From NCBI RefSeq assembly GCF_004210375.1, contig NW_027467782.1, positions 38,305,771 to 38,369,770 on the forward strand: 64,000 nucleotides of DNA, in the 5' to 3' direction. The stretch is from Tachypleus tridentatus (lineage: Eukaryota; Arthropoda; Merostomata; Xiphosura; Limulidae). Below, in pieces: positions 34,951 to 64,000 of the stretch; position 1 is the first letter of the stretch; each line of letters starts with the position of its first letter. Both the position numbers and the translations under genes were made by a program. The notes under the pieces were generated by a model that worked only from the letters and a program-made list of their open reading frames with translations, did no database searches and was not told the origin of the DNA.

Positions 34951-35121
34951 TAATATATTCTAGTTATTTCCCAAATTAAAGCAAATCCTTTTAAATATCT
35001 CCTTGAAGTTATAAAGCCAGGATTAAATTTGTAAGCCACGTTTTGCACTTTCTTAAATTAGCGGTGAGCCGCGATAATCCTCGCTCATATTCGTCATGTC
35101 AGTGTCAACGACAAGGAGAGT

Positions 35122-39207: not shown

Positions 39208-39606
39208 TATATGTTTTGAATCCCATTAGAAAATAATAGTGGTGTAAAGGTTTAAAATTATTTAAGTATGATTATTTACACACATTGAAAAACCTTCAGT
39301 AGTTTAATGTATTTGATTGAGGTGAAAAAAGCTAAAAGAATTAGGAATCGTGTTTTAGAGAAATTTATAATTTGAAAACAAGAAGGCTATTTTAACCTTG
39401 ATATAAGATTTTGATGTGGGCTACCATTGCATTTAATAGCTTATAAGGCTCACTGGCATACAACAACTACAGTAGTGGTTGGAATACTATTGATGTAAGT
39501 AGTTTGTTATTACAACAGTTTTTATAATATGAAGTTTGTGAATGTTAACTTAGAAAAGGTATTCACTCCATAACAACTGTTATACAAGTGTTCATTGTCT
39601 GTTCCC

Positions 39607-39722
39607 TAGTAGGACAGAGGTTAGTGTTTGAATTTATAATGTTAAAGTCAGGGTTTTGATTCCCTTTGGTAGACACAGCAGATAGCCCGTTGTTGCTTTG
39701 CTATAACAAAACAAACACATTC
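39607..39722 (+). mobile_element. SINE family C in right arm
   Basis: Counterpart of 21917-22030. The B-box region reads cagggttttgattccc and the tail reads tgctttgctataacaaaac. Confidence 0.7.
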
Positions 39723-42240
39723 TGTCTGATATGTCTAGAATATTATCTACCATCCACTCACCGTATTGTCTGACTGAAATTATATATGAATGAAATCATT
39801 AGATCATTAATGCATGTAATAAACCTTTGAAGTCCAAAGTACATGTAGTTTTTAAATTAATTAATGCATTCAGAGGGAGATTTTAAGTTTCTAACTTGTT
39901 ATATTATATTCTTAAAGTTTATTTGTAATTTTTCTCTATTTTTTTCACACAACTATTTAAAAGTTATTATATTTTATTAGAATATCTCTCCTTTATGATT
40001 GAACCTTTTTACATTTATTATTCATGTAAAATAATAACATTTGGTCAATCTAGAATCTCGTAAAGCTGAAAAAATATATATCTGAGACAGCTCATATCAT
40101 TATGTTTTCATCATCAACTTTGAGGGTTATTTTTAGGAGTCACAAGACGATGAAAAAATTCCGTACGTATAAAAAATTTGCTAATGTGTTCATGGGCTAT
40201 GTAGCAGTGGTAGTGGATTTATCAAGTGGAAGCTGACGTATGCTCTCCATAGAGAGCCATTGTGTGGGTTTTCTGTACATTAAAACACAGCTGGCTACAG
40301 TACAATGTTTTATCACATTTTAACACTACTGGTATGTATTTTTTTTTCTGGTCATAATCAGCTATGTTTTTTGAGTGGTTGTGATACATGCTTTATTAAA
40401 TAGTGGGGTTTAACTACATTGCTTTATTAGGTAATTATAGCCTTTAGGTGTTAATTATCATCCCTATCTGGTAAAACATAACAGAAGTGATCATGTTGTA
40501 TATTTTGTTTTTTAGTGAGGTATGAGTTTAGTGCATTATGTAATCATAGTATTTGATTTTTGTCCTGTTGAGATGTTAATCCAGTGTTTTGGTATCATGA
40601 AAATTCTAGTCAAAAGTAATAATATCTAGATATTTTCAAACATTTGTTAACTTTTCATACAATCGTTGTCTTCAGTAATTTTTACTCGTGAAAAAATTTA
40701 AAGGAACTCAGCATTAACAGTTTTTATACCCCTATAAAAGTGTTTCTTGTGCATAACATCAGGGTCAGAAAAGCAAGAACTTGTTTATCCTTTTTAATAA
40801 TACTAAAATATTAGTGTATAAACATTTGATCATTTTTTAGGTTTTGTAATGTCATTAAAACTTTTAATTACTTTTCCATTATTTACAATTTGTTACCCTC
40901 TTGTAAGTTACAAAAAACAATGTGCTCATTACCTTTAAAGGAGTTTCAAAATGACAGGGTTTATAATTTTGTTGTTTTCTGACAATAATTTTATAATAGC
41001 TCAGGCTGCAAGCTAAGAAGTGATGCATTAAATTAATCCTGATTCTCCTTTATTATGTTTATAAAGAATACTTGATTATGAGTTCTAATAAAAATTGCCA
41101 GGTTTATCAACAGCTTTACTTAAAACCTTTAGATACCTACCTTGTAGCTTAATATTGGAAAATGTCACTACTACAGCAGCTTCTTGGATATAAAATATGG
41201 AAATTATCAGTCAGGTTTTCAAAGAAATCTATGCAGTCTTGATGACATTCTGTAAACCCTGACATAATGTGATTGGGATTAACTTGTTGCTGCTTGCTGG
41301 TAATATCAGCAGCAGGTTACCACAGATATATTTTGTTCTTACCATACATATACAGTAAATGCCATTGAAATAATGTGCTTTATGTAATTTCAGATTACTG
41401 TACCTATATAAGCAGCTGTTTTATGTGGGACGAAATTCTCCTGCAGGGTTAAGAACCGAAAAGAACAAACCAACATTTACTATTATAGAGTATATATAGC
41501 TGCAAATCTACAGTATGACTTAAATGAGTCTTACAAATCATAATGATCAAGTCTGATTGTAAGCACTTGTCTGTAATGGCAGATTCATTGCTCTTAACTT
41601 TAACCCTCTGTTCCTGGAAACATTTCTTGAGACGTCTCTGAACTAAGTAGTTTAGAAATAGTAGATATTTTATTTTTACCTAAAACATTGAATGAATTTT
41701 TATTTCTTAAAAAGTTATAGAAGTTGCTGTTTAAGAGATGTTTTCTTGTAGGAAAGACAAATAGAAAGTTCACTAACATAAGTTTCAGTATTAAATGATA
41801 AAGAGAAAAACAAACAAACATGCAAATCAGGTACATATTGTAATGATGCTAGGAAAACACTAGGTAAAAAAAATCAATTAAAACAAACAAAATATAGGAG
41901 TTTAAGAGTGTTTACAAGAGAATAACTTATTGTTTAATTTTAAAAGTATAATAAAGAGAACAGACTACTAATATTCATCACTGGTACAACTCACTTACCA
42001 TTTCAAACAATACAATGTTCCTCTTCTACAAGATGGTTCGTGTTTAACCTTCCAGTCCTCTTTACCTCAAAACTAATATCTGTAATGTTAAACATCTTTT
42101 TTCTTGATCATTTAATGGGAGTGTGTACAAAGAGAGCATACTCATATCAAGAATTTCAACTTACATTCTTAGTCCAGTGAATAATGTCACTCCATGACCT
42201 TTGTTCACTGACAGCATTGGTCATGAAACATTGGTCAGAC

Positions 42241-42634
42241 TTGCGGGGGTCAATTATCTGTTATAGCCGTTCGGTTACTCCCGAAGGACAAGGCGCTGAG
42301 GTCATGGTAGCATTGCAAAACTGGATCAAGTAATAGACAATTTACCGACTTTGTTCGGTGAAGTACTCGTGTAATGTGCGTTCTGATTACTGATTTACAG
42401 CATATAATGTTCATTTCACAACGTTCACACAATGTTACATGACAACGTTGATTATTCGCTATGAAGTGACTGCATTTTGACGATTTCATAACAGCGTTAT
42501 GGTATAACGTGACCAAATCACAACCAAATTGTGGCAACACATGACGTTGCAACTCTCATATATGGGACACTGGACATTACTTGATAAGAGGGGAAAACAT
42601 TTCATTCTGAAATTCATTCCTAATTATGTAACAT
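42241..42634. other. unassigned sequence between right arm and hAT-like end
   Basis: Base composition changes at 42241, where the inverted duplication ends; CpG and GC content rise. A 100-codon open frame on the minus strand (42250-42552) contains many Cys and His but no recognised motif. It may be the inner part of the element that ends at 42718. Confidence 0.35.
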
Positions 42635-42718
42635 CAATTTGGCGCCCCCACCCCCGACGCTGCGCCCGGGGACAGATGTACACCCTTGACCCCCCCCCCC
42701 TCCCTAGCTACGCCACTG
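42635..42718 (-). mobile_element. hAT-like transposon terminus
   Basis: The reverse strand of the end reads cagtggcgtagctaggg, a word I know from termini of many animal hAT elements. It is followed by a G-run (11 C at 42690-42700 on the plus strand) and a GC-rich stretch of about 60 bp. The opposite terminus was not found, so the length is unknown. Confidence 0.55.
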
Positions 42719-42923
42719 GCGAACGTGTAATCTTTTTAAGCCAAAAATCATGAACGGTAGAACTTTCTATTTAAAACACCAATAAAAAGTATTTTAATTA
42801 GTAAAGAAAAATCCTACCAGGAATAATATATTTTTGTGTGATAATCCTCCATATGAAACAAGCATCTCAACGTTACTTGTTTCAGATTACCCTTAGTAAC
42901 TACAAGTACTTCTCATTACTTTC

Positions 42924-43191
42924 GCCCGGCATGGCCATGTGGTTCAAGCACTCGACTTGTAATCCAAGGGTCGCGGGTTAAAATCCTCGTCGCACCAAAC
43001 ATGCTCGCTCTTTTAGAAGTGGGTGCGTTTTAACGTAACGGTCAATCCCACTATTCGTTGTTAAAAGAGTAACGCAAGAAATTAGCGGTAGGTACTGATG
43101 ATCAGCTGTCTTCCACCTACTCTTACATTACTAAATTAGGGACGACAAGCGCAGATAGCCCTCAAATAGCCTCAAGCGAAACAAAAACAAA
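42924..43191 (+). mobile_element. SINE family A, full length
   Basis: Head gcccggcatggccatgtgg, anticodon region gacttgtaatcc, weakened B-box (gggttaaaatcctcg), full body and an A-rich tail. It sits directly before the minisatellite at 43195. Confidence 0.9.
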
Positions 43192-43194
43192 TAT

Positions 43195-44160
43195 TGATTT
43201 TCATACTTGGATTTTGTATAATTATAGTATATATGTCGATGTGTTTCTTAGTGAATGCCTGGATTTGGTATGATTATAGTAAATATGTGGATGGATTTGG
43301 TATGATTATAGTATATATGTCAATGTGTTTCTCAGTGAATACCTGGATATGGTATGATTATAGTAAATATGTGGATGGATTTGGTATGATTATAGTATAT
43401 ATGTCGATGTGTTTCTTTGTGAATACCTGGATTTGGTATGATTATAGTAAATATGTGGATGGATTTGGTATGATTATAGATATAGTATGTCGATGTGTTT
43501 CTTTGTGAATACCTGGATTTGGTATGATTATAGTATATATGTCGATGTGTTTCTCAGTTAATACCTGGATATGGTATGATTATAGTAAATATGTGGATGG
43601 ACCTGGATTTGGTATGATTATAGTATATATGTCGATGTGTTTCTCAGTTAATACCTGGATATGGTATGATTATAGTAAATATATGTGGATGATTATAGAT
43701 TTGGTATGATTATAGTATATATGTCGATGTTTCTTATAAATGTCGGAATACCTGATGATTATAGTATTTATGTCGATGTGTTTCTTAGTGAATACCTGGA
43801 TTTGGTATGATTATAGTATATATGTCGATGTGTTTGGTATGATTATAGTATTTATGTCGATATTTTTCTAAGTGAATACCTGGATTTGGTATGATTATAG
43901 TATATATGTCGATGTGTTTGGTATGATTATAGTATTGATGTCGATGTGTTTCTTACAGAATACCTGGATATGGTATGATTATAATATAGAGGTCAATGTG
44001 TTTCTTAGTAAATACCTGGATTTGGTATAGTTACGGTGTTCACGTCAATGTGTTTCTTAATGAATACCTGGATTTGGTATAATTATGTTGATGTGTTTCT
44101 TAATGAATATCTGGATTTGGTGTGATTATGGTATATATGTCGATGTGTTTCTTAGTGAAT
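43195..44160 (+). repeat. minisatellite, 84-bp period from two related half-units
   Basis: The word ggtatgattatagtatatat followed by gtcgatgtgtttct and a gaatacctggatttggt segment repeats to about 44160. A shorter half-unit (atagtaaatatgtggatgg) alternates with it in the first half, giving an 84-bp period. Because 84 is divisible by three, a frame stays open for 104 codons and repeats MIIVYMSMCF and VNTWIWYDYSK every 28 residues. Units become shorter and more diverged toward the right. The open frames are explained by the period and need no gene. Confidence 0.95.
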
Positions 44161-44850
44161 CGTTTCGGTAATCCAATTAGGTATTTGCTTATGTATTTGA
44201 CATAATAATTGCAGGATGACAAAAGTGAAGTTATTTATTTCTAAAATTTTAATGTATTTGTTTGTTTGACATTATGCCTTTTTTTATGAAGTGTCCATTA
44301 TTACTATTTTTTGCATCGATGTTTTTTTTTTAATTTGAAAATTGGGGTTTCGTCTTATATCTTTATAGAATTGCTTTGTTTTTCTTTAGTAAATGTAAGA
44401 CTCAATATCTTGGTATAATAATTTTAGCCATCAAAATACTTTGATTTCACGAATTCATGTTCATTCCGACATACATCTATTTATTAAATATTATTTGTGT
44501 TACATTAACATGAATAGTACATAGTATTTCTGTAAATATTACAATCTCTTTGAAGTTTGATTTAGTTATTAATATTTTAACTTCAACTGCATCATAACAC
44601 AATTTTATATAAACTCGTTTTATAGTATTTGTCTGTATTTGGAAAGATTATGGAAACTATATATATTTACATAAGTATAATATAAATGGTAAAACAACAT
44701 GCGGAAACTAAAATGTCTTTGTAGTTTTTCTTATATGAATGAAAGCAGCGAGAAAAAGGTTAATGGCATTGGTTCACTTCAATATATTTACGTACAAAAT
44801 TATACATACGTATTATAATGTACATCTGACGAGCCGATGATTTATTTTGC
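44161..44850. other. no recognised feature
   Basis: AT-rich sequence between the minisatellite and a SINE. Nothing further was seen. Confidence 0.4.
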
Positions 44851-44970
44851 GTTGTTGTTTTGATTAAGCACAAAGCTACAATGGGCTGTCTGTGCTTTGC
44901 CCACCACGAGTATCGAAACCCGGTTCTTAGCGTTTTAAGTCCGCAGACATACCGTTGAGTTACTGGGGAC
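44851..44970 (-). mobile_element. SINE family B, full length
   Basis: Reverse-strand copy with body aatgggctgtctgtgc, B-box region tatcgaaacccgg and head ending gttactgggg. It is well preserved apart from the tail. Confidence 0.85.
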
Positions 44971-45717
44971 GTTTATTTTATTTTTTTGCGATGTAGTACA
45001 AGTTCAAATAGCCGGAACTTTTAATTTTAATTTAAAAGTTAATTTAATGTGAATGTGTATCAAATTTATAATAATTGCCAACAAGATTCATACACACAAA
45101 AACAATATCAAGTCCTCTATCTGGCATGATAATAACTTTCAAGTTGATATAGATGCAGTTCACTTAACGAGGAAACTAGCTAACTCTATTATTCGCTGGA
45201 CTCACGCCGTTTATAAGCTGACTTTTAACCGCGGAAAATATCTAATGTCCTCGTAAAAATACTATCGTCTAAAGTTAAATGGTTTGCAGTGTTCGACATC
45301 AATGAACGTTCTTGGTCAAATATAGGTAGTTTTTTTCGATTAATAAGCGTTTATAACAGTTATCAGTTCTGAGGTTTATAGTATACTAACTGTTACAAAC
45401 TAACAATATATGCTATTTCTCAGCGAGTTTGATGACTATCTTTCATAATCATTAGACAAGGTTCAAATTTCAGTTGGCAACAATACTGGCAGTAACTAGA
45501 ACTTAAACACACATATCTGCAATTGATGATTCTTTACTCTAGAATCTTCTACAAATTTATAAAATAGAGGAGAATTTCGCAATACATATTTAACACAAGA
45601 AGTGGCGTATATTTCTAAATATTAATATACATTTAACTAAAAGAATCGTTCATATTAAAATAAATATATGTTAATGAAATGCCGTTACAATCGAAACTAC
45701 GTGAACTAAACCCAGGG
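44971..45717. other. no recognised feature
   Basis: A 67-codon open frame at 45053-45256 (HLTRKLANSIIRWTHAVY) has protein-like composition but no motif I recognise. The rest is AT-rich. Confidence 0.35.
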
Positions 45718-45950
45718 TTTGTTTGCTTGTTTTTGAATTTCGCACAAAGCTACTCGAGCTAATCTGTGCTAGCTGTCCCTAATTTAGCAGTGTAAGACTG
45801 GAGAGATGATAGCTAGTCATCACCGCCAACTCTTGGGCTACTCTTTTACCAACGAATAGTGGGATTGACCGTCACATTATAATCGGGATTCGAGCTCACG
45901 ACTCCTCAGATTAAGAGTCGAGTGCCTTATCCACCTGGCCATGCCGGGCC
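45718..45950 (-). mobile_element. SINE family A, body shortened
   Basis: The reverse-strand copy runs from tttgaatttcgcac to catgccgggcc. The segment between the GTCACATTATAA word and the head is deleted, so the middle of the element (cggctgaaagggcgagc in other copies) is missing. Confidence 0.9.
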
Positions 45951-46352
45951 CAGATTTTGGAGATGACAATGTTTAAGGTACTAGCAAATATTGTTTCCAA
46001 TATTTATGGTCTTTTTGAGTTCTTCATTATTCATCATCTAGTAACCTAAAGAAAATAAAAGAAATCTATACAGTAAATAGTTGGTCAAAATCATAAATTT
46101 GGCCAAGGAGAACAATATTATTCACACACTCAAATAATCTTGGTTACAAAATAATAAGTTTAAAATGACTTGAAGACTTTATAAATATTTCTCCTCGGGA
46201 AATATGTACGTAGTGCTGTGGCGACATGTAACTGATAAGTAAATAAATATTTATATATACAATCCAGTTATGTTGCGTGTATAAAGCATTTTAATATACA
46301 ATGTTTGGGATTAAAAAAAACCAACTGTGTGCCTTTGATAAGAAGAAAGCCA

Positions 46353-46471
46353 CCCGGCAAAGAGCATGGTAAGTCAGTGGATGTGCAACGTGAAAACACG
46401 GGTTTCGACCTCGACGCAGATAGCCCTTGAGTAGCTTTGCGCGAAATTCAAAAACAAACAAACAAACAAAC
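46353..46471 (+). mobile_element. chimeric short SINE: other tRNA-like head with family A tail
   Basis: The first part (acccggcaaagagcatgg, then gggtttcgacctcg) has a B-box-like word but does not match the head of family A, B or C. The second part (gcagatagcccttgagtagc, then gcgaaattcaaaaac with AAAC repeats) is the 3' tail of family A. It looks like a recombinant made during reverse transcription, or a minor subfamily. Confidence 0.5.
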
Positions 46472-46539
46472 CGCCCCTTTAGGCATAGAACATGAGGTTT
46501 AGGTAATTCATTTTATTTTATCTTTTCAACATTATCAAT

Positions 46540-46650
46540 GTCTCCCACTGGTACAGCGGTAAGTCTACGGATTTACAATTCTAAAATCATGGGTTTGATT
46601 CCCTTCGATGGACTCAGCAGATGGCCTGATGTGGCTTTACTGCAGGAAAA
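46540..46650 (+). mobile_element. SINE family C
   Basis: Head cccactggtacagcggtaag, B-box region gggtttgattccc, body ggactcagcagatggcc, tail gctttactgcaggaaaac. Full length and moderately diverged. Confidence 0.8.
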
Positions 46651-46703
46651 CACATACGCATCACTGATAGCCTGTATTTTTAAGAAAACAAAAAAGCAGC
46701 AAA

Positions 46704-46972
46704 TGTTTTGAATTTCGCACAAAGCTACCCGAGGGCTATCTGCGCTAGCCGTCCCTAATTTAGCACTGTAAGACTAGAGGGAAGGCAACTAGTCATCACC
46801 ACCCACCGCCAATTCATGGGCTACTCTTTTACCAACAAATAGTGGGATTGAAAGTAACATTATAACGCCTCTACGGCTGAAAGGGCGAGCATGTTTGGCG
46901 CGATGGGGATGCGAACCCGCGATCCTTGGATTACGAGTCGCACGCCTTAACGCATTTGGCCATGCCGGGCCT
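46704..46972 (-). mobile_element. SINE family A, full length
   Basis: Reverse-strand copy, well preserved throughout, with the anticodon complement attacgagtcg and the head end catgccgggcc. It is one of the least diverged copies in the window. No clear target-site duplication was spotted. Confidence 0.95.
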
Positions 46973-47028
46973 AAAAATAATTAAACATGCCATTATTGAT
47001 TCATTTTTCTAATTACTTGTCATTTGCT

Positions 47029-47155
47029 ACCCAGTGGCTCAGCGGAATGTTTGTGGACTTACAACGCTAAAATTCGGCTCTCAATAGCCGTGGTGGGCTG
47101 AGCCTAGATAACCTATTGTGTAGCTTTGTGCTTAATTCAAAACAACAACAACAAA
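47029..47155 (+). mobile_element. SINE family B, full length
   Basis: Head acccagtggctcagcgg, damaged B-box (ggctctcaatagccg), body ggtgggctgagcctagataa, tail tgcttaattcaaaacaac. Confidence 0.8.
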
Positions 47156-47960
47156 CTTGTCATTTAGGTTTTATTGCATATAACGTAACTAATTTTTTAT
47201 TTGAATTAATTTTGGAAAAATTAATAAAAAATAAAGTGGTTGCAAGAATTATGAAAAATGTGTTAAAAAGTGGATTACTTAAACATTTGTTAATTTTAGA
47301 AAGTATATTCATTTTTCTTTTCGTTTTTGTAAAGTGTCGCTTGTTCCTAGCTGAATTTGATTGGTTATATCACATTGTTCTATTCTGAGATATTGAATTG
47401 CGATTGCTTAGCAAAATAGAACGTTTTTAACCGTTGTGGAAGAATCATTTAAACGTAAGTACTCTTAGTTATCTATAACAACATAAATTTGAGAAATTCA
47501 GAAAACTCTTGGTAATATCAAAAGCTTTACCATCCTTTTTACGTTTTTGAAAATCCAGAACTTTTATTTAGTTTTGTGTTTTTAATTTAGTGATTTATTG
47601 AGTTTTAAGTTTACGCTCTTCCAAACATTAGGCTTAAGATGGCTAATGTGATTAGAAAAAGCTTAAGAAATGGACTACAAAAGGTTTCATCAAAAATTGT
47701 AATGTAAGTATGTATGATTCACATAATTATGTTTGATTTATATTAATTTGAAAAAAGTAGGCTACTATGTTTAACCAACACATTTTTCCTTTAACTATAA
47801 TGGTATGAATTAACAGTGAATTTTTTATATTATGCATAAAAAGCGCTTCGTACGTCATAAATGATGCATCAAACAATCAAACTGCTTTCTGGAACACGTT
47901 CTCATTATGCGGTAAGTTACAGCTACTACTTTGTAGGTAGGAATTTTATACCAACTGCAG
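47156..47960. other. no recognised feature
   Basis: AT-rich. The 90-codon open frame at 47116-47388 begins inside a SINE tail and has no motif. The 5' terminus of the hAT element at 48050 should lie here or in the next 90 bp but was not identified. Confidence 0.35.
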
Positions 47961-48049
47961 AACTTCGTGCTTATCGTGTATGAATTAGCTTATCATTTAT
48001 CCATGAAAAAAAAAATTAAGTTAGTCTGGTGCTGCAAAGGAGAATGTGT

Positions 48050-49036
48050 TGAATCAAAAGCAAGGAATCAAACGAAAGTACAAAAACAAATACATCGAAT
48101 ACGGTTTTATCGCTTTGGAATCGGAACATTCTCAATTACCATTCTGCCTACTCTCAATGCAGCTTTATCGAACGAGGCGCTTGTTCCCAGCAAAGTGAAG
48201 AGACACTTGGAAACAAAACATTCAGCTGTGAAGGATAGACCAAAAGATTACTTCGAGAATCTCGCGGTTCAACAACATGAGCGATCAAGGAAGCTTGTGA
48301 AATAGATGAAGCTGTTCGAAAAAGGATTGATTGCAAGTTATAAGGTTTTTCAGTTGTTTGCAAAACGCAAGAAAGCGCATACGGAGGCCAAATCAGTCAT
48401 TGTGCCAGCATTAGCAATCATTGTTGAAACTATGCTTGGAACGGATGCTGCCAAAAAGGTTAAGTAAGTTCCACTGTCCAGTGACACAATTTCACTCAGA
48501 ATTGTAGACTTATCGTTGGATTTGAAGGATCAAGTTTGCGAACACTTGGAAGCGCCTGAAGATGAATTGTCTCTGCTCTGGTCTCTTGAAGTTGATGAAT
48601 CTTCTGACGTTAGTGGAAAATCTCAAGTTCTGACTTTTGTTCGATTCATAAAAGATGGAAAATCGTAAACGAATACTAATTTTGCAAAGATTTAAAAAGT
48701 ACAGGAAAGGCCAAGACATTTTCGAGTTGGTGAATGAAAACATTTTGCTCTTCAAATTACATTGGAATAACTGTGTCAGCGTTTGCACCGATGGCTGTTC
48801 TTCAATGTAAGGTAAAAAGAAGGGATTCGTCATTCTGGTGCGCCAACAAAATCCAAACATTACGATTGTTCACTGCATGATTCACAGAGAGGTGCTCCCC
48901 TCCAAATCTTTACTGAAAGATTTGCAGTCTGTTATGAATCAAGTTATTCAAGTAGTAAATTTCATCAAGTCTCGGCCACTTTAGTCTCGACTTTTCTCTC
49001 TTCTCTGTAAGGCGATGGATTCAGACTACAAAAAGC
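48050..49036 (+). mobile_element. decayed hAT transposase, ZBED5-like lineage
   Basis: Segments appear in the order of ZBED5-type proteins. First is KRKYKNKYIEYGFIALE with QLPFCLL (start of the BED finger); then SNEALVPSKVKRHLETKH with KDRPKDYFENL; then AHTEAKSVIVPALAIIVETM. Next come VPLSSDTISLRIVDLS, the first catalytic region VDESSDVSGKSQVLTFVRF, VCTDGCSSM (second catalytic Asp region), HCMIHREVLPSKSL and VVNFIKSRPL. Several stops and frame changes separate them, and the second Cys of the finger is lost. A family A SINE is inserted at 49038 and the C-terminal third does not resume after it. This lineage gave rise to domesticated ZBED5 genes in vertebrates, but this copy is dead. Confidence 0.88.
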
Positions 49037-49037
49037 T

Positions 49038-49285
49038 TTGTTTTTTGTTTGTTTTTGGAATTTCGCACAAAGCTACTCGAGGGCTATCTGTGCTAGCCGT
49101 CCCTAATTTAGCAGTGTAAGACTAGAGGGAAGGCAGCTAGTCATCAACACCCACCGCTAACTCTTGGGCTACTCTTTTACCAACGAAAAGTGGGATTGAC
49201 CGTCCCATTATAACGCCCCCACGGCTGAATAAGCGAGCATATTTAGCGGGACTCGGATGCGAACCCGCGACCCTCAGATTACGAG
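49038..49285 (-). mobile_element. SINE family A inserted at the end of the hAT copy
   Basis: Reverse-strand copy with a good body (taactcttgggctactc). The head stops at the anticodon complement (gattacgag) and lacks its first 30 bases. It truncates the transposase homology on its right side. Confidence 0.9.
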
Positions 49286-50179
49286 ACCTAACTGATTCTG
49301 AAGTCTGGGGACCAAGCAGACCTAAGAGCCTTACACCTTATTGGACAGAGTGGCAGAATCCACTAATGATTAGCTAAGCACCACTTTTGTACCAGTGGTG
49401 CAGACATGGCAGTCAGCTTCCAAAACATTGTTATCAAGAAAGATGAATGGTAGGCCCTTCAGTATCAAGAACCCTCTCCCTAAGTGTCTTATCATAATGT
49501 GTCTATAAACAATGAGCCACAAGTAGTGTATGTGCATTGGTCTGTGCAAAATATCACTATATCTCTAAGCCAGAGAAGCCCTGTGAGAGTTGAGGTTGTC
49601 CTAAAGGACAGCTGAATGTTGGGTGGCAGAGAAACACGTCTTCCAGAACTCAGTACCACAAATAACAAATACAACACCTTTGGAATCATTGTTGCTAGTA
49701 GCCAACAAACTGTGAAGATCTTATTGTCAGTAGTGTCATCAATAACAACAGAGGGATAAACAAAGGGATCACTGGACTACTGGCAGTGTTAAATATGAGG
49801 CCAGTGACCAAGAGGTTCTGAAGATTGCATCAGTTGCAGATGATGGCTGACTTGTAAATGAAACCATCAACATTCATTGCCATAGTCCTGACAGTGATGC
49901 AAGTTCAATTTTTTAAAGTATGCACGTCAGGAAATATCCACAAAAACTTGGACCATGTATAACTGCAAATATCTACTGCAGTAACACCACCAGCTGCTGA
50001 CAGAGCTGGCTTAAGCCAGCCAAACTTTAGACTGAGCTAGAGAAATAATAAGAGACACCATAGCAGCCAAGTGGTGATCCACTGCCACTATAGAGGGTGT
50101 GATGTTGGATATGAAGTGTGAGTGATGAAAGCTAGACCTCATTTCTGCTGCTTAGGTTAGTATAAATTTTCCCCATGTG
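49286..50179. other. moderately GC-richer unassigned sequence
   Basis: This stretch is visibly less AT-rich than its surroundings and has mixed composition on both strands. A 65-codon minus-strand frame (49492-49689) has no motif I know. It may be an old, decayed mobile element. No family was recognised. Confidence 0.35.
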
Positions 50180-50569
50180 CAGGAGGTGGACAAAAAAAGT
50201 TGCCTTTTTAATTTGTTATATCTTTTGTTAGATAACAGAAAAATATCTAAAACATACGTTTTTAGAACACACTTGATGAGATCTGTTCAAATATGATCTT
50301 AAATCCTAATTTTAACAATTGTAGGCAACTAGGAATAAGAATATCTAAGAAACTGTAGCAGGGTGCACATCACTTCTTATGATAAAATGTCACAAAAATC
50401 ATAAAACGTTCAGGTATTTACAAAAGCCATGTAAAAATTAGGATTTGATATCATATTTGATAAAATAGCACATTCTAAAAACATAGTTTTTACAAATTTT
50501 TCTATTATTTATTAAAAGACATAACAAATTAACATTTTAAAAGGGGCAACTTCTTTTGTTCACTCCCTG
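50180..50569. mobile_element. MITE, 390 bp, with terminal inverted repeats of about 130 bp
   Basis: The left end (caggaggtggacaaaaaaag) and the reverse complement of the right end (cagggagtgaacaaaagaag) pair, and the pairing continues inward to about 50315 and 50440. Words such as tttgttat, aaatcctaatttt and aaatatgat match in reverse order. It has no coding capacity. A CAGGG-type end next to TA suggests the Tc1/mariner group, but the target site is not clean. Confidence 0.8.
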
Positions 50570-50574
50570 TATGT

Positions 50575-50595
50575 GTATATATATATATATATATA
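50575..50595. repeat. TA microsatellite
   Basis: About ten TA dinucleotides directly after the right end of the MITE, possibly grown from its TA target site. Confidence 0.9.
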
Positions 50596-51984
50596 ATTGA
50601 GTGATATATAAGCATCGTGGTATTTTCTCTTTTTATTATTTGCTTTTTCTCTTCTGATATATTGTTTTGGTATTTAAGAATGAGTAATTGATTAAAGTAT
50701 AAATAATTTGCAGTGGCTGGCTAGTGGGTTTGATTTATTTGGTTTTATAATGTAAACATACCAATTTCAGTACATATGTCCCTACATTTTTTTTATTATA
50801 ATCATTATGTTAGTACTGAATTTCTTCAAAAGATTAATTTGTTTAGTATGTATTATTAAGTGTTATTTTATATATACTTTTAAATTTTTTTAGAAGTAAT
50901 TTTATTTAATGTATAAAGGCTTAATTTTTGATCTAATGCTGATTTGTTCTTCATTTGTCATAGAGCAAAAGAAGTTATTAATTTATCTATCTTTAGTTCA
51001 TCTAAAGAATAGCTTCCTCTTATGTCATGAGTTGTTATTCAAGGGTTATTTTGCATTTCATTGTTTGCAGTTTTATGTATTATTCTTAAACATTATTTTT
51101 CATTGTAACTATACATTAAATGTATATTATTTAAATCATTTTGTATTGAGATTGAAATTTGTATTTTCTGCTATGTTAAAATTTATTTTGTATAATCATT
51201 ATGGAAGGGTTTTTCTTTATTGCATTTCTTTGTTAAAAGTTTCTGAAGTGTTCATTATAGGGTTTATATAGTTGTTCTGTACTTTGGTGGTAAATTTCTG
51301 TGTTGTAAGGCGTGTTAATAAAATTATGATATTGAATTCTTTTATGGAGAATTTTAAAATTAGGATGCTGTATCGAGTTCTTTGTCTAAGGGTTGTGCTG
51401 TCTTTGTCATAAGTGTTCACAAGAATGGTAAAAACTTAACACACTGTGTAACCATGGTTCAACTTTGAATTTTATATTTTGAAAGTTAAAATTATCTACT
51501 AGTTTGAAGAAAAGCCTGAATTAGGGAGAGAGAAAAATATTGTGTGTACAAATAAATGCATGTAATTTAAAAACAACAAGGAATATGCCAGTATGTTGAG
51601 ACTGTCCTATCCACTGTACTAAACCCTAAAATAATAACAAAACACTCAAAGCCATCCCTTATTATTCAGATATGTAATGTGTCTTCCCTTAACTTCCTCA
51701 GATTAACTGCATGTACTACATCTGAAAGCAATCCTTTGAGGGGTCAGCTACCCTGTTAGAAAAATAAAGTTGTCTTAGTTAAAGACAACTGTTACGTTTA
51801 TAATTTCCCTTAACAGTCTTAAACACCTCAATCAGTATTTGACATAGTATGTTTTGAATTTATAATTTGTTCTGTGTGTGTGTGTGTATGTAATTTGATG
51901 TTGTTTAAGTTATCTTTCTCCTTACCATTGTATTGAGCTTACACCTATTCTGCTCATGGTGTAATGGGCCTCTTGATGAATCAA
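50596..51984. other. no recognised gene; TG microsatellite at 51873-51887
   Basis: Very AT-rich. The 120-codon open frame at 50909-51271 is made of F, L, I, Y, K and N and contains no motif; its length follows from composition. A short TG run lies at 51873-51887, about 100 bp before the satellite begins. Confidence 0.4.
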
Positions 51985-53394
51985 GACTCATGTTAATGTA
52001 ACACTTGTTACAAAGAACAAGAGAACTCGTATTAATATAACACTTGTTACAAAGAACTAGACATTCATGTTAATGTAACAATTGTTACAAAGAACAAGAC
52101 AATCATATCAATCTAACACTTGTTACAAAGAACAAGAGACACTCATGTTGATATAACACGTGTTACAAAGAACTAGAGACACTCATGTTAATGTAACACT
52201 TGTTACAAAGAACAAGACAATCATTGTTACAAAGAACAAGAAAACTCATTAATATAAAACTTGGAACAATAAGCAGGAGACACTCGTGTTAATGTGACAC
52301 TTGTTACAAAGAACAAGACACACTCGTTATAATTTAACACTTTTACACAGAAAGAGACACTCATGTTAATGTTACACTTGTTACAAAGAACAAGAGACAC
52401 TAATATTAGGTTAATACTTATTGCAAAGAACAAGAGAAATCGTTTTAATATAACACTTGTTACAAAGAACAAGAGACATTCATCTTAATGTAACACTTGT
52501 TGCAAAGAACAAAAAACAGTCATGTTAATCTAACACTTGTTTCAAAGAAGAAGAGAAATCTTGTTATTATAACACTTGTTAGAAAGAACAAGAGACATTC
52601 ATGTTAATGTAACACTTGTTACAAAGAACAAGAAACAATCATGTTAATCTAACACATGTTTCAAAGAACAAGAGACACTGATGTCAATACAACAAGTGTT
52701 ATATTAACATGATTGTTTCTTGTTCTTTTTAACAAGTGTTTCATTAACACGAGTTCTATTGTTCTTTATAAAAGTGTTTCATTAACATGAGTTCTATTGT
52801 TCTTTATAAAAGTGTTTCATTAACATGAGTTCTCTTGTTCTTTGTAACAAGTGTTATATTAACATGTCTCTTGTTCTTTGTCACATGTGTTACATAAACA
52901 TGGGTGTCTCTTGTTTTTTGTAACTAGTGTTACTTAAACATGAGTTCTCTTGTTCTTTATAACAAGTGTTATAATAACGTGAGTGTTTCTTGTTTTTTTT
53001 AACATGTAACAAGTGTTATATTAACATGATTGTATCTTGTTCTTTGTATCAAGTGATATAATAACATGATTGTTTCTTGTTCTTTGTAACAAGTGTAACA
53101 TAAAGATGATTGTCTCTTCTTTTTGTAACAAGTTTTATATTAGCATGAGTTCTCTTATTCTTTGAAACAAGTGTTATATTAACATAATTGTTTCTTGTTT
53201 TTTTAACAAGTGTTACAATAACACGAGTTTCTCTTGTTCTTTGTAACAAGTGTTAGATTAACACGAGTATCTTTTGTTTTTTTGTAACAAGTGTTACATT
53301 AACAGGAATGTCTTGTTCTTTATTACAAGTTCTCTATTAACACGACTTCTCTTGTTCTTTGTAGCAAGTGTTACATTAACATGAGTGTCGTGTT

Positions 53395-53436
53395 CTTTGT
53401 AACAAGTGTTGTATTAACATGTTACTTGTTACAAAG
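53395..53436. repeat. palindromic reverse-to-forward junction of the satellite
   Basis: CTTTGTAACAAGT (53395-53407) and ACTTGTTACAAAG (53424-53436) are perfect 13-bp inverted copies around a 16-bp loop. The same or a very similar junction recurs near 54991, 56438, 57122, 58678, 59638, 61256, 62585 and 63465. Confidence 0.9.
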
Positions 53437-54221
53437 TACAAGAGACGCTCATGTTAATGTAACACTTGTTACAAAGATCTAGAGACACTCATGTTAATGT
53501 AACACTTGTTGGAAAGAACAAGAAACAATCATATAAATCTAACACTTGTTACAAAGAACAAGAGACACTCATGTTTATCTAACACTTGTTACAAAGAACA
53601 AGAGACTCTCATGTTATATAACACTTGTTACACTTGTAACACTTGTTACAAAGAACAAGAGAACTCGTATTGATATAAAACTTCTTACAAAGAACAAGAG
53701 ACACTCATGTTAATATAACACTTGTTACAAAGAACAAGAAACAATCATATCAATGTAACACTTGTTACAACGAACAAGAAGTCGTGTTAATATAACATTT
53801 GTTACAAAGAACAAGAGACATGTTAATATAACACTTGTTACAAAGAACAAGAGACACTCAGAATGTAACACTTGTTACAAAGAACAAGAGACACTCATGT
53901 TAATATAACACTTGTTAACAAGAGACACTCATGTTAATGTAACACTTGTTACAAAGAACAAGAGACACTCATGTTAATGTAACACTTGTTACAAAGAACA
54001 AGAGACAAGTTAATATAACACTTGTTACAAAGAACAAGACTCATGTTAACACTTGTTACAAACTTGTTACAAAGAACAAGAGAGACACTCGTGTTTATAT
54101 AACACTTGTTACAAAGAACAAGAGAACATGTTAATGTAACACTTGTTACAAAGAACAAGAACAATCATGTTAATGTAACACTTGTTACAAAGAACAAGAG
54201 ACACTGTGTTTATGTAACAAG

Positions 54222-54260
54222 TGTTACAAAGAACATGAGTTTCTCATGTTCTTTGTAACA
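54222..54260. repeat. near-perfect palindrome at a forward-to-reverse junction
   Basis: Two 18-bp arms (TGTTACAAAGAACATGAG in reverse-complement pairing) surround a 3-base loop at 54240-54242. This junction differs from the common forward-to-reverse junction used elsewhere in the array. Confidence 0.9.
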
Positions 54261-57200
54261 AGTGTTACATTAACATGAGTTCTCATGTTCTTTAAAAAGT
54301 GTTACATTAACATGAGTGTCTCTTGTTCTTTGTAACAAGTGTTACATTAACATGAGTGTCTCTTGTTCTTCGTAACAAGTGTTATATTAACATGTCTCTT
54401 GTTCTTTGTAACAAGTGTTACATAAACATGAGTGTCTCTTCTTTTTTTTGTAACTAGTGTTACATAAACGCGAGTTCTCTTGTTCTTTATAACAAGTGTT
54501 ATAATAACATGAGTGTTTCTTGTTTTTTGTAACAAGTGTTACATTAACATAATTGTATCTTGTTCTTTGTATCAAGTGATATATTAACATGATTGTTTCT
54601 TGTTCTTTGTAACAAGTGTTACATTAACATGAGTCTCTTGTTCTTTGTAACAAGTGTAACATAAAAAGATGATTGTCTCTTCTTTTTTTGTAACAAGTTT
54701 TATATTAGCATGAGTTCTCTTATTCTTTGAAACAAGTGTTATATTAACATCATTGTTTCTTGTTTTTTTGTCTCTTGCTAACAAGTGTTACAATAACATG
54801 AGTTTCTCTTGTTCTTTGTAACAAGTGTTAGATTAACACGAGTATCTTTGTTTTTTGTAACAAGTGTTACATTAACAGGAATGTCTTGTTCTTTATTACA
54901 AGTGCTCTATTAACACGACTTCTCTTGTTCTTTGTAGCAAGTGTTACATTAACATGAGTGTCGTGTTCTTTTGAACAAGTGTTGTTTTAACATGTTACTT
55001 GTTACAAAGTACAAGACTCATGTTAATGTAACACTTGTTACAAAGAACAAGAGAACTCGTATTAATATAACACTTGTTAATGTAACACACTTGTTACAAA
55101 GAACAAGAAACAATCATATCAATGTAACACTTGTTACAAAGAACAAGAGACACTCATGTTAATATAACACTTGTTACAAAGAACAAGAGAACTCATGTTA
55201 ATGTAACACTTGTTACAAAGAACAAGAACAAGAATAAACTCAAAGAACAAGAGAATCGTGTTAATAGAAACTTGTTAACAATAAGAAGATTAATAGAAAA
55301 CTTGGAACAATAAGTTAATGTGAATGTGACTTGTTACAAAGAACAAGACACACTCGTTATAATTTAACACTTTTACACAGAAAGAGACACTCATGTTAAT
55401 GTTACACTTGTTACAAAGAACAAGAGATACTAATATTAGGTTAATACTTATTGCAAAGAACAAGAGAAATCGTTTTAATATAACACTTGTTACAAAGAAC
55501 AAGAGACATTCATCTTAATGTAACACTTGTTGCAAAGAACAAAAAAACAGTCATGTTAATCTAACACTTGTTTCAAAGAACAAGAGAAATCTTGTTATTA
55601 TAACACTTGTTAGAAAGAACAAGAGACATTCATGTTAATGTAACACTTGTTACAAAGAACAAGAAACAATCATGTTAATCTAACACATGTTTCAAAGAAC
55701 AAGAGACACTGATGTCAATACAACAAGTGTTATATTAACATGATTGTTTCTTGTTCTTTTTTCAACAAGTGTTTCATTAACACGAGTTTTATAGTTCTTT
55801 ATAAAAGTGTTTCATTAACATGAGTTCTCTTGTTCTTTGTAAAAGTGTTACATTAACACGAGTGTCTCTTGTTCGTCGTAACAAGTGTTATATTAACATG
55901 TCTCTTGTTCTTTGTCACATGTGTTACATAAACATGGGTGTCTCTTGTTTTTTAACTAGTGTTACATAAACGTTCTCTTGTTCTTTATAACAAGTGTTAT
56001 AATTGAGTGTTTCTTTTTTTTTTGTAACAAGTGTTACATTAACATGATTGTATCTTGTTCTTTGTAACAAGTGATATATTAACATGATTGTTTCTTGTTC
56101 TTTGTAACAAGTGTTACATTAACATGAGTCTCTTCTTTTTGTAACAAGTTTTATATTAGCATGAGTTCTCTTATTCTTTGAAACAAGTGTTATATTAACA
56201 TCATTGTTTCTTGTTTTTTGTAACAAGTGTTACAATAACACGAGTTTCTCTTGTTCTTTGTAACAAGTGTTAGATTAACACGAGTATCTTTGTTTTTTTT
56301 GTAACAAGTGTTACATTAACAGGAATGTCTTGTTCTTTATTACAAGTGCTCTATTAACACGACTTCTCTTGTTCTTTGTAGCAAGTGTTACATTAACATG
56401 AGTGTCGTGTTCTTTGTAACAAGTGTTGTATTAACATGTTACTTGTTACAAAGTACAAGAGACTCATGTTAATGTAACACTTGTTACAAAGATCTAGAGA
56501 CACTCATGTTAATGTAACACTTGTTGGAAAGAACAAGAAACAATCATATCAATGTAACATTTGTTACAACGAACAAGAAGTCGTGTTAATATAACAGTTG
56601 CTACAAAAAACAAGAGACAATCATGTTAAATAACATTTGTTACAAAGAACAAGAGACACTCATGTTACTGTAATACTTGTTACAAAGAACAAGAGAACTC
56701 GTGTTTATGTAACCATTGTTACAAAGAACATGAGACACTCATATTAATGTAACCCTTGTTACAAAGAACATGAGACACTCATATTAATGTAACACTTGTT
56801 ATATTGACATCAGTGTCTCTTGTTCTTTGTAACAAGTGTTATAATAACAAGATTTCTCTTGTTCTTTGAAACAAGTATTAGATTAACATGACTGTTTTTT
56901 GTTCTTTGCAACAAGTGTTACATTAAGATGAGTTTCTCTTGTTCTTTGTAACAAGTGTTAGATTAACATGAGTATCTTTGTTTTTGTAACAAGTGTTACA
57001 TTAACAGGAATGTCTTGTTCTTTATTACAAGTGCTCTATTAACACGACTTCTCTTGTTCTTTGTAGCAAGTGTTAAATTAACATGAGTGTCGTGTTCTTT
57101 TGAACAAGTGTTGTTTTAACATGTTACTTGTTACAAAGTACAAGACTCATGTTAATGTAACACTTGTTACAAAGAACAAGAGAACTCGTATTAATATAAC

Positions 57201-60200
57201 ACTTGTTACAAAGAACAAGAGACACTCATGTTGATATAACACGTGTTACAAAGAACAAGACAATCATGTTAATATAACATTTGTTACAAAGAACAAGAGA
57301 ACTCGTGTTAATGTAATACTTGTTATAAAGAACAAGAAAACTCATTAATAGAAAACTTGGAACAATAAGTAGGAGACACTCGTGTTAATGTGACTTGTTA
57401 CAAAGAACAAGACACACTCGTTATAATTTAACACTTTTACACAGAAAGAGACACTCATGTTAATGTTACACTTGTTACAAAGAACAAGAGACACTAATAT
57501 TAGGTTAATACTTATTGCAAAGAACAAGAGAAATCGTTTTAATATAACACTTGTTACAAAGAACAAGAGACATTCATCTTAATGTAACACTTGTTGCAAA
57601 GAACAAAAAACAGTCATGTTAATCTAACACTTGTTTCAAAGAACAAGAGAAATCTTGTTATTATAACACTTGTTAGAAAGAACAAGAGACATTCATGTTA
57701 ATGTAACACTTGTTACAAAGAACAAGAAACAATCATGTTAATCTAACACATGTTTCAAAGAACAAGAGACACTGATGTCAATACAACAAGTGTTATATTA
57801 ACATGATTGTTTCTTGTTCTTTTTTAACAAGTGTTTCATTAACACGAGTTTTATAGTTCTTTATAAAAGTGTTTCATTAACATGAGTTCTCTTGTTCTTT
57901 GTAAAAGTGTTACATTAACACGAGTGTCTCTTGTTCTTCGTAACAAGTGTTATATTAACATGTCTCTTGTTCTTTGTCACATGTGTTACATAAACATGGG
58001 TGTCTCTTGTTTTTTGTAACTAGTGTTACATAAACGCGAGTTCTCTTGTTCTTTATAACAAGTGTTATAATAACGTGAGTGTTTTTTTTAACAAGTGTTA
58101 CATTAACATAATTGTATCTTGTTCTTTGTATCAAGTGTAATATTAACATGATTGTTTTTGTTCTTGTAACAAGTGTTACATTAGCATGAGTTCTCTTGAA
58201 CAAGTGTTATATTAACATCATTGTTTCTTGTTCTTTATAACAAGTGTAACATAAAGATGATTGTCTCTTCTTTTTTTTGTAACAAGTTTTATATTAACAT
58301 GAGTTCTCTTATTCTTTGAAACAAGTGTTATATTAACATGATTGTTTCTTGTTCTTTGTAACAAGTGTTACAATAACACATAAAGATGATTGTCTCTTCT
58401 TTTTTGTAACAAGTTTATATTAGCATGAGTTTGTTATATTAACATCATTGTTTCTTGTTTTTTCTAACAAGTGTTAGATTAACACGAGTTTCTCTTGTTC
58501 TTTGTAACAAGTGTTAGATTAACATGAGTTCTTTTTTTTTGTAACAAGTGTTACATTAACAGGAATGTCTTGTTCTTTATTACAAGTGCTCTATTAACAC
58601 GACTTCTCTTGTTCTTTGTAGCAAGTGTTAAATTAACATGAGTGTCGTGTTCTTTTGAACAAGTGTTGTTTTAACATGTTACTTGTTACAAAGTACAAGA
58701 GACTCATGTTAATGTAACACTTGTTACAAAGAACAAGAGAACTCATGTTAATGTAACACTTGTTACAAAGAACAAGACACTCATGTTAATGTAACACTTG
58801 TTACAAAGAACAAGAGAAATCATATTTATCTAACACTTGTTACAAAGAACAAGAGACACTCATATTAGGTTAATATTTATTACAAAGAACAAGAGAAATC
58901 GTTTTAATATAACACTTGTTACAAAGAACAAGAGACACTCATATTAATTAACACTTGTTACAAAGAACAAGAAAAATCGTTTTAATATAACACTTGTTAC
59001 AAAGAACAAGAGACATTCATCTTAATGTAACACTTGTTACAAAGAACAAAAAACAGTCATTTTAATCTAACACTTGTTTCAAAGAACAAGAGAAATCTTG
59101 TTATTATAACACTTGTTAGAAAGAACAAGAGACATTCATGTTAATGTAACACTTGTTACAAAGAACAAGAAACAATCATGTTAATCTAACACTTGTTACA
59201 AAGAACAAGAGACACTGATGTCAATACAACAAGTGTTATATTAACATGATTGTTTCTTGTTCTTTTAACAAGTGTTTCATTAACATGAGTTTTATAGTTC
59301 TTTATAAAAGTGTTTCATTAACATAAGTTCTCTTGTTCTTTGTAAAAGTGTTACATTAACACGAGTGTCTCTTGTTCTTCGTAACAAGTGTTATATTAAC
59401 ATGTCTCTTGTTCTTTGTCACATGTGTTACATAAACATGAGTGTCTTTGTTTTTTGTAACAAGTGTTAGATTAACATGAGTATTTTTTGTTTTTTTTGTA
59501 ACAAGTGTTACATTAACAGGAATGTCTTGTTCTTTATTACAAGTGCTCTATAACACGACTTCTCTTGTTTTTTTTGTAGCAAGTGTTACATTAACATGAG
59601 TGTCGTGTTCTTTTAAACAAGTGTTGTTTTAACATGTTACTTGTTACAAAGTACAAGAGACTCATGTTAATGTAACACTTGTTACAAAGAACAAGAGAAC
59701 TCGTATTAATATAACACTTGTTACAAAGAACTAGAGACACTCATGTTAATGTAACAATTGTTACAAAGAACAAGACAATCATATCAATCTAACACTTGTT
59801 ACAAAGAACAAGAACTCATATTCATATAAACACTTGTTACAAAGAACTAGAGACTCTCATGTTAATGTAACACTTGTTACAAAGAACAAGACAATCATGT
59901 TAATATAACATTTGTTACAAAGAACAAGAGAACTCGTGTTAATGTAATACTTGTTATAAAGAACAAGAAAACTCATTAATAGAAAACTTGGAACAATAAG
60001 CAGGAGACACTCGTGTTAATGTGACACTTGTTACAAAGAACAAGACACACTCGTTATAATTTAACACTTTTTACACAGAAAGAGACACTCATGTTAATGT
60101 TACACTTGTTACAAAGAACAAGAGACACTAATATTAGGTTAATACTTATTGCAAAGAACAAGAGAAACGTTTTAATAATACTTGTTACAAACAAGGTTAA

Positions 60201-63200
60201 TATTAGGTTAATAACTTATTGCAAAGAACAAGAGAAATCGTTTTAATATAACACTTGTTACAAAGAACAAGAGACATTCATCTTAATGTAACACTTGTTG
60301 CAAAGAACAAAAAACAGTCATGTTAATCTAACACTTGTTTCAAAGAACAAGAGAAATCTTGTTATTATAACACTTGTTAGAAAGAACAAGAGACATTCAT
60401 GTTAATGTAACACTTGTTACAAAGAACAAGAAACAATCATGTTAATCTAACACATGTTTCAAAGAACAAGAGACACTGATGTCAATACAACAAGTGTTAT
60501 ATTAACATGATTGTTTCTTGTTCTTTTAACAAGTGTTTCATTAACACGAGTTTTATAGTTCTTTATAAAAGTGTTTCATTAACATGAGTTCTCTTGTTCT
60601 TTGTAAAAGTGTTACATTAACACGAGTGTCTCTTGTTCTTCGTAACAAGTGTTATATTAACATGTCTCTTGTTCTTTGTCACATGTGTTACATAAACATG
60701 GGTGTCTCTTGTTTTTTTGTAACTAGTGTTACATAAACGCGAGTTCTCTTGTTCTTTATAACAAGTGTTATAATAACGTGAGTGTTTCTTGTTTTTTGTA
60801 ACAAGTGTTACATTAACATAATTGTATCTTGTTCTTTGTATCAAGTGATATATTAACATGATTGTTTCTTGTTCTTTGTAACAAGTGTTACATTAACATG
60901 AGTCTCTTGTTCTTTGTAACAAGTGTAACATAAAGATGATTGTCTCTTCTTTTTTTGTAACAAGTTTTATATTAGCATGAGTTCTCTTATTCTTTGAAAC
61001 AAGTGTTATATTAACATCATTGTTTCTTGTTTTTTTCTAACAAGTGTTACAATAACACGAGTTTCTCTTGTTCTTTGTAACAAGTGTTAGATTAACACGA
61101 GTATCTTTGTTTTTTTGTAACAAGTGTTACATTAACAGGAATGTCTTGTTCTTTATTACAAGTGCTCTATTAACACGACTTCTCTTGTTCTTTGTAGCAA
61201 GTGTTACATTAACATGAGTGTCGTGTTCTTTGTAACAAGTGTTGTATTAACATGTTACTTGTTACAAAGTACAAGAGACTCATGTTAATGTAACACTTGT
61301 TACAAAGATCTAGAGACACTCATGTTAATGTAACACTTGTTGGAAAGAACAAGAAACAATCATATCAATCTAACACTTGTTCAAAGAACAAGAGACACTC
61401 ATGTTTATCTAACACTTGTTACAAAGTACAAGAGAACTCATGTTAATGTAACACTTGTTACAAAGAACAAGAAAACTCATTAATAGAAAACTTGGAACAA
61501 TAAGAAGAAGACACTCGTGTTAATGTGACTTGTTACAAAGAACAAGACACATTCGTTATAATTTAACACTTTTACACAGAAAGAGACACTCATATTAATG
61601 TTACACTTGTTACAAAGAACAAGAGACACTAATATTAGGTTAATACTTATTGCAAAGAACAAGAGAAATCGTTTTAATATAACACTTGTTACAAAGAACA
61701 AGAGACATTCATCTTAATGTAACACTTGTTGCAAAGAACAAAAAACAGTCATGTTAATCTAACACTTGTTTCAAAGAACAAGAGAAATCTTGTTATTATA
61801 ACACTTGTTAGAAAGAACAAGAGACATTCATGTTAATGTAACACTTGTTACAAAGAACAAGAAACAATCATGTTAATCTAACACATGTTTCAAAGAACAA
61901 GAGACACTGATGTCAATACAACAAGTGTTATATTAACATGATTGTTTCTTGTTCTTTTAACAAGTGTTTCATTAACACGAGTTTTATAGTTCTTTATAAA
62001 AGTGTTTCATTAACATGACTTCTCTTGTTCTTTGTAAAAGTGTTACATTAACACGAGTGTCTCTTGTTCTTCGTAACAAGTGTTATATTAACATGTCTCT
62101 TGTTCTTTGTCACATGTGTTACATAAACATGGGTGTCTCTTGTTTTTTGTAACTAGTGTTACGTAAACGCGAGTATAATTGTATCTTGTTCTTTGTATCA
62201 AGTGATATATTAACATGATTGTTTCTTGTTCTTTGTAACAAGTGTTACATTAACATGAGTCTCTTGTTCTTTGTAACAAGTGTTACATAAAGATGATTGT
62301 CTCTTCTTTTTGTAACAAGTGTTTATATTAGCATGAGTTCTCTTATTCTTTTATATTAGAAACAAGTGTTACAATAACACGAGTTTAACACGTTTCTCTT
62401 GTTCTTGTAACAAGTGTTAGATTAACACGAGTATCTTTGTTTTTTTGTAACAAGTGTTACATTAACAGGAATGTCTTGTTCTTTATTACAAGTGCTCTAT
62501 TAACACGACTTCTCTTGTTCTTTGTAGCAAGTGTTACATTAACATGAGTGTCGTGTTCTTTGTAACAAGTGTTGTATTAACATGTTACTTGTTACAAAGT
62601 ACAAGAGACTCATGTTAATGTAACACTTGTTACAAAGATCTAGAGACACTCATGTTAATGTAACACTTGTTGGAAAGAACAAGAAAAGAATCATATCAAT
62701 CTAACACTAGTTCAAAGAACAAGAGAACTCGTATTGATATAAAACTTCTTACAAAGAACTAGAGACACTCATGTTAATGTAACACTTATTACAAAGAACA
62801 AGAAACAATCATATCAATGTAACATTTGTTACAACGAACAAGAAGTCGTGTTAATATAACAGTTGCTACAAAAAACAAGAGACAATCATGTTAAATAACA
62901 TTTGTTACAAAGAACAAGAGACACTCATGTTACTGTAATACTTGTTACAAAGAACAAGAGAACTCGTGTTTATATTACCTTTGTTACAAAGAACATGAAA
63001 CACTTACGTTAATGAAGCACTTGTTACAAAGAACAAGAGAACTCGTGTTTATGTAACCATTGTTACAAAGAACATGAGACACTCATATTAATGTAACCCT
63101 TGTTACAAAGAACATGAGACACTCATATTAATGTAACACTTGTTATATTGACATCAGTGTCTCTTGTTCTTTGTAACAAGTGTTATAATAACAAGATTTC

Positions 63201-64000
63201 TCTTGTTCTTTGAAACAAGTATTAGATTAACATGACTTTTTTGTTCTTTGCAACAAGTGTTACATTAAGATGAGTTTCTCTTGTTCTTTGTAACAAGTGT
63301 TAGATTAACATGAGTATCTTTGTTTTTGTAACAAGTGTTACATTAACAGGAATGTCTTGTTCTTTATTACAAGTGCTCTATTAACACGACTTCTCTTGTT
63401 CTTTGTAGCAAGTGTTAAATTAACATGAGTGTCGTGTTCTTTTGAACAAGTGTTGTTTTAACATGTTACTTGTTACAAAGTACAAGACTCATGTTAATGT
63501 AACACTTGTTACAAGTAACAAGAGAACTCGTATTAATATAACACTTGTTACAAAGAACTAGCACTCATGTTAATGTAACAATTGTTACAAAGAACAAGAA
63601 AATCATATCAATCTAACACTTGTTACAAAAAACAAGAGACACTCATGTTGATATAACACTTGCTACAAAGAACTAGAGACACTCATGTTAATGTAACACT
63701 TGTTACAAAGAACAAGACAATCATGTTAATATAACATTTGTTACAAAGAACAAGAAAACTCATTAATAGAAAACTTGGAACAATAAGTAGGAGACACTCG
63801 TGTTAATGTGACTTGTTACAAAGAACAAGACACACTCGTTATAATTTAACACTTTTTACACAGAAAGAGACACTCATGTTAATGTTACACTTGTTACAAA
63901 GAACAAGAGACACTAATATTAGGTTAATACTTATTGCATAGAACAAGAGAAATCGTTTTAATATAACTTGTTACAAAGAACAAGAGACATTCATCTTAAT

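Follow-up and report, generated by a model that had tools for sequence, protein, structure and literature searches.

Shared inversion sites in a strand-switching satellite of the horseshoe crab Tachypleus tridentatus: tandem copying of an inverted composite unit as the likely cause

How does a satellite come to reverse its orientation dozens of times within one array? The question is raised by a 64,000-nucleotide stretch of the horseshoe crab Tachypleus tridentatus, referred to here as the window (assembly GCF_004210375.1, contig NW_027467782.1, hereafter C19, positions 38305771-38369770). C19 is 69.8 Mb long, and results called genome-wide cover the 2.17-Gb assembly of 205 contigs. In keeping with the source species, the assembly has 19 matches to the Pfam family Coagulin, which is not known outside horseshoe crabs, against none in 14 control genomes. 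Tandem Repeats Finder reports consecutive arrays of a ~40-bp monomer over 51986-64000, with the complementary form alternating, and an orientation scan divides the region into 19 blocks of 0.3-0.9 kb, ten forward (F) and nine reverse (R), separated by 18 switches. These results confirm the block counts and monomer length given by an earlier sequence-only reading. The in-window part of the array spans 51983..64000: an AAG at 51983-51985 matches the satellite, and homology between the flank and its other copies stops at 51982, which marks the left edge. That reading gave the array 12 kb, which holds for the window, but the array goes on for 26.8 kb past the window end, up to a 500-N assembly gap. 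In full (C19:38357753-38396562) it measures 38.8 kb and comprises 30 F and 30 R blocks, 60 altogether, of 243-1051 bp, with 59 switches between them; the 32.7 kb beyond the gap showed no satellite. The alternation was also described as strict. The layout is as stated, but its strictness carries no information because maximal runs of two orientations must alternate. The informative features are how densely the switches lie and that the same junction sequences recur at them.

The R-to-F switches share a conserved inversion site, found first at 53416..53439 (plus strand) and again starting at 54989, 56433, 57118, 58673, 59631, 61249, 62579 and 63460. It is present without mismatch at all nine in-window R-to-F switches, and with at most one mismatch at 29/29 in the full array. 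A second site marks the F-to-R switches. Six of the nine in the window carry it in the sense of the first example (52680..52702, plus strand; further starts at 55711, 57774, 59217, 60478 and 61909), and two others, F4/R4 and F9/R9, carry it in inverted sense with two mismatches (56789..56811, minus strand, and again at 63133-63155). Over the full array it occurs at 24/30 F-to-R switches with no mismatch and at 5/30 inverted with two, the five inverted-sense sites being spaced 6.3-6.5 kb apart. Conserved sites thus stand at 58 of the 59 switches. Repeated independent flipping was rejected because of these common junctions, and the earlier picture of blocks that flip is accordingly the wrong one: what gets copied is a composite unit of one F and one R block.

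An example of this unit, delimited by comparing junctions and blocks, is F3 + R3 (54995..56438, plus strand). Units measure 0.7-1.8 kb (median 1.3 kb) and abut head to tail without spacer. F blocks are 77-95% identical to one another and R blocks 80-99%, whereas F against reversed R gives 75-87%, which is lower overall although the ranges overlap. Because same-sense blocks are more alike than F and reversed R, we take the F+R composite as the true repeat unit; as in a composite satellite, two inverted halves with shared junctions form a unit that repeats head to tail. A further level lies above it, a higher-order repeat of five F+R units (6.34-6.53 kb), of which four copies were compared. The first, located by copy alignment at 57125..63466 (plus strand), is ~97.9% identical to the other three, with 255-298 gap columns; those three agree at 99.92-99.97% by substitutions (2-5 substitutions), with 18-55 gap columns besides. 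We also considered hairpin arms matched unit by unit. This was rejected, as each F block is no closer to its neighbouring R than to other R blocks.

Do other arrays of this satellite switch as well? Fourteen on C19, which were retrieved with block F2 as query and are therefore a biased choice, total 90.4 kb and have no switch, against 59 in the 38.8 kb of the alternating array. Neither inversion site occurs in them at the tolerance used for the alternating array; at up to four edits there are no F-to-R and four weak R-to-F matches. One 4-kb stretch on C8 is satellite over its whole length. The assembly holds 14,764 exact matches to a 52-mer of the standard monomer, of which the alternating array has just two, and neighbouring monomers are 96-97% identical in L025, the one uniform array measured, versus 71-86% in the window (periods 38-40, Tandem Repeats Finder). 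From these comparisons we suggest that inverted blocks may hinder exchange between monomers, moving homogenisation to the composite and higher-order levels.

How, then, might the composite unit have formed? We consider it likely that rare foldback switches at palindromic words came first, followed by tandem amplification and finally by segmental duplication. The starting point would be an ancestral 40-bp satellite arranged head to tail, in which foldback template switches, rare events at palindromic words within the monomer, would give an F+R unit, the F-to-R switch at the quasi-palindrome TAACA-CT-TGTTA and the R-to-F switch around CATG. The F-to-R site does join near TAACA, where the monomer reads TAACA-CT-TGTTA, and the R-to-F site contains TAACATGTTA; to judge from these words, at either site a strand could snap back onto itself and serve as its own primer. 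Unequal exchange or rolling-circle amplification would then have multiplied the unit head to tail, giving units of 0.7-1.8 kb and, here, the 6.5-kb five-unit higher-order repeat. Lastly the locus would have spread, mostly within one chromosome, as copies that took long flanks along (about 24 kb for several of them). What is directly seen is that junctions are shared, that units and a higher-order repeat exist, that flanks were copied and that the satellite has uniform relatives; the template switch, the sequence of events and the lack of any selected function are proposed in addition.

Are the junctions private to this locus? That idea was overturned by genome-wide matches. Allowing up to two mismatches, the R-to-F site occurs at 585 places and the F-to-R site at 389 (one pattern) or 634 (the inverted-site pattern), the last two sets overlapping, while reversed control patterns have no genome-wide match at this tolerance. 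Exact matches to one F-to-R pattern number 88 by hand count (C19, 71; C14, 9; C4, 5; C8, 2; C6, 1), with none on any other contig; the contig spread is taken from these exact matches, since positions are known for part only of the places with one or two mismatches. On C19 the exact sites belong to many separate arrays dispersed over 0.99-45 Mb, and on the other four contigs to few places. Another array, at C19:0.46-0.50 Mb, has amplified a different unit of ~1.8 kb. Five other alternating loci were compared (L029, L030, L031, L032 and L040), and 17 of their 18 F-to-R switches have the F-to-R site, the eighteenth being similar by eye (hand count). Of the two, the F-to-R site is shared more widely and is perhaps older. 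L040, the copy on C6, consists mostly of uniform R sequence with two F islands and resembles an early stage, an apparent intermediate. The recurrence of the sites also bears on whether the array is an assembly artefact caused by long repeats. The higher-order copies are near-identical and a gap lies at the right end of the array, and the copy number as assembled may be wrong. An artefact is nevertheless extremely improbable because the same junctions recur on C4, C6, C8, C14 and C19, where both unit lengths and neighbours differ.

Several points weigh against foldback switching followed by copying. A recount with a longer and stricter regular-expression pattern found the sites at only 26/29 R-to-F and 26/30 F-to-R switches; when the sequences were printed, the sites it had missed proved to include three F-to-R with no mismatch and three R-to-F with one mismatch, the latter just beyond the allowed distance. 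The switch from F2 to R2 (54200..54260, from the junction comparison) is a true exception, the only one of the 59 that has no conserved site. The assembly gap conceals the right end of the array, which lies in or at it. The five other alternating loci were picked for carrying the junction patterns, and even so the R-to-F site is present at just 9 of their 16 R-to-F switches (hand count) and at neither of the two in L031; the return switch therefore arose more than once. Selection on inversion sites would also yield conserved sites, and structural significance is how such sites were read in the beetle genus Tribolium by Veseljak et al. 2026 (PMC13081366).

Their paper describes macro-dyad satellite arrays in T. 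madens, T. freemani and T. castaneum, with orientation changes, highly conserved inversion sites and large fold-back potential, and states that macro-dyad symmetries are documented exclusively in Tribolium; a second paper (PMC13427858) cites the first. The Tribolium macro-dyads are the closest known system. Like them, the horseshoe crab locus combines subarrays of opposite orientation in one array (here 30 F and 30 R in 38.8 kb) and has highly conserved inversion sites (at 58/59 switches in the full array). Tribolium subarrays, however, are described as several kb long and mostly two per array, in putative (peri)centromeres of all chromosomes, whereas here there are 60 blocks of 243-1051 bp and exact F-to-R sites are dispersed on C4, C6, C8, C14 and C19 only. 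The horseshoe crab array also differs as a head-to-tail composite repeat in a genome that holds uniform arrays of the same satellite. Because the subarray length and number and the placement at all (peri)centromeres do not match these descriptions, we class it as an orientation-switching satellite outside the Tribolium type. The same paper reports ~300-bp inverted repeats within the 704 bp of T. madens TmSat2 and ~470-bp inverted segments within the 1061-bp satellite of T. brevicornis. These resemble our unit in consisting of two inverted halves repeated in tandem; unlike them, each half here is itself an array of short monomers, the unit length varies and a higher-order level is present.

An alternative is a structural satellite, the idea put forward for the Tribolium macro-dyads, in which the array would be kept because the hairpins or cruciforms that it forms organise (peri)centromeric chromatin. 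In an RNA folding model, one F+R unit has a predicted energy of -438.5 kcal/mol, whereas 20 shuffled versions average -193 (z -39.6); a uniform control sequence, likewise 958 bases long, gives z -11.5, each z score coming from a single sequence. The sequence-only reading held that the array can fold back on its neighbouring parts, and the computation bears this out. Strong predicted fold-back together with conserved inversion sites is what PMC13081366 describes, and a structural role would also agree with the F-to-R site being kept at nearly all switches elsewhere, when the R-to-F site is not. A satellite serving the centromeres of the whole set, on the other hand, should occur on every chromosome, and the exact F-to-R sites lie on five contigs only, 71 of the 88 on C19 in many separate arrays. 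The earlier suggestion of a centromeric component is not supported, because the arrays lie scattered along 45 Mb of a single chromosome (the exact sites over 0.99-45 Mb of C19, with few elsewhere), and we regard the structural explanation as unlikely. Still less probable is that the array supplies long double-stranded RNA to a silencing pathway: a transcript of the unit would, in the folding model, form a long hairpin, but its arms are just 75-87% matched.

No report of strand-switching satellite arrays in horseshoe crabs was found in the open-licence literature, nor did queries there on alternating-orientation satellite tandem repeats or inverted higher-order satellites return anything. It is possible, if rather doubtful, that the macro-dyad architecture arose independently in a chelicerate and that inverted composition is favoured as homogenisation shifts to the composite or higher-order level. 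If this is true, inverted composition would block monomer-by-monomer homogenisation and create a self-sustaining class of satellite beside uniform arrays of the same family. Because one genome has both uniform arrays of this 40-bp satellite and arrays that switch strand, together with junctions in common and an apparent intermediate, one can ask whether conserved inversion sites reflect selection for hairpins or are the footprint of copying one inverted unit. Copying suffices here, and we therefore caution against taking conserved inversion sites as proof of function.

The sequence to the left of the array is itself repeated. The copied flank extends over 27200..51982, and each of the two pieces tested (27200-28200 and 51300-51985) has at least 40 copies, its own included. 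The second piece, the 686 bp next to the array, matches at 94-100%; for the first, 37 of the 40 scored copies (own included) are on C19. The two pieces are 24.10 kb apart here and 24.06-24.19 kb apart in three other copies, and other flank copies are 98-99.5% identical to the window over the stretches read. Among 40 scored copies of the second piece, 13 match up to 51985 and 27 stop at 51982. Within 4 bp, 25 of these 27 run into a 1.13-kb segment, beside which none of the 13 edge-sharing copies lies among the matches listed (best 40); direct reading showed the segment to be absent from the window and from L029. In two copies of this second flank type that were read (L040 and L021) the satellite begins in the R sense. 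These contrasts suggest that the flank/array edge of the window is probably derived. For eleven of the 13 edge-sharing copies the exact-site matches listed include a junction of the alternating type no more than about 20 kb away towards the array; for those at 31.01 and 34.24 Mb they include none. Copies of the second flank type can adjoin alternating arrays too, L032 lying between two of them.

Foldback (FB) transposons have inverted arms made of short tandem repeats. An element of this kind (FB- or Galileo-like), inserting in clusters, would share with our locus both such arms and the dispersal of copies. Unlike FB transposons, however, the F+R unit lacks ends that are inverted versions of one another; the units abut head to tail with no spacer, and the left edge of the array coincides with the copied flank. 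No target duplication was seen, although no systematic search was made and the right edge is in the gap. We consider a foldback transposon very unlikely. A transposon with a shared left end was rejected for the flank, whose homology begins at different points (17714 in L041, beside the window's 500-N assembly gap at 17214-17713, and 22807 in L042). The flank copies are better read, from their varying limits, as probable segmental duplication on a repeat-rich chromosome than as one transposon.

C19 carries many near-identical copied segments in both orientations, and is perhaps a sex chromosome, or one of B-like or ampliconic type. Another repeat, at window 1000-2000, is present in full length 17 times, counting itself, at 95-100%; 12 of these copies are on C19, and diverged ones cluster at C6:153-157 Mb. 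Around and within the copied flank, 19297-24847 and 37149-42232 form a large inverted duplication (81-97% complementary in ungapped blocks, 85-90% in longer gapped pieces), the former resembling another copy of the flank unit that has since diverged. A smaller inverted pair of ~210 bp (34329-34535 and 36861-37070; 96% alike, 2.3 kb apart), perhaps a nested element, is also found in other copies. Coding content was rejected as an explanation of the array: the 13 window open reading frames scanned gave one match above the cut-off, a DDE_1 transposase fragment, besides an HTH_32 match below it and a DUF6141 match at E 0.13, and the window had no match to known structured RNAs or tRNAs. The DDE_1 fragment lies at 17888-18292, and L041 is without window 17997-20098, which holds most of it. 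In the 1.13-kb segment, L040:8684-9851 (minus strand) is an exon-like open stretch with AG/GT borders by eye, perhaps a copied piece of a host gene. Finally, a second tandem repeat of mixed 52- and 32-bp units (84 bp) occupies 43208-44160 in the copied flank and recurs in L034 and L035.

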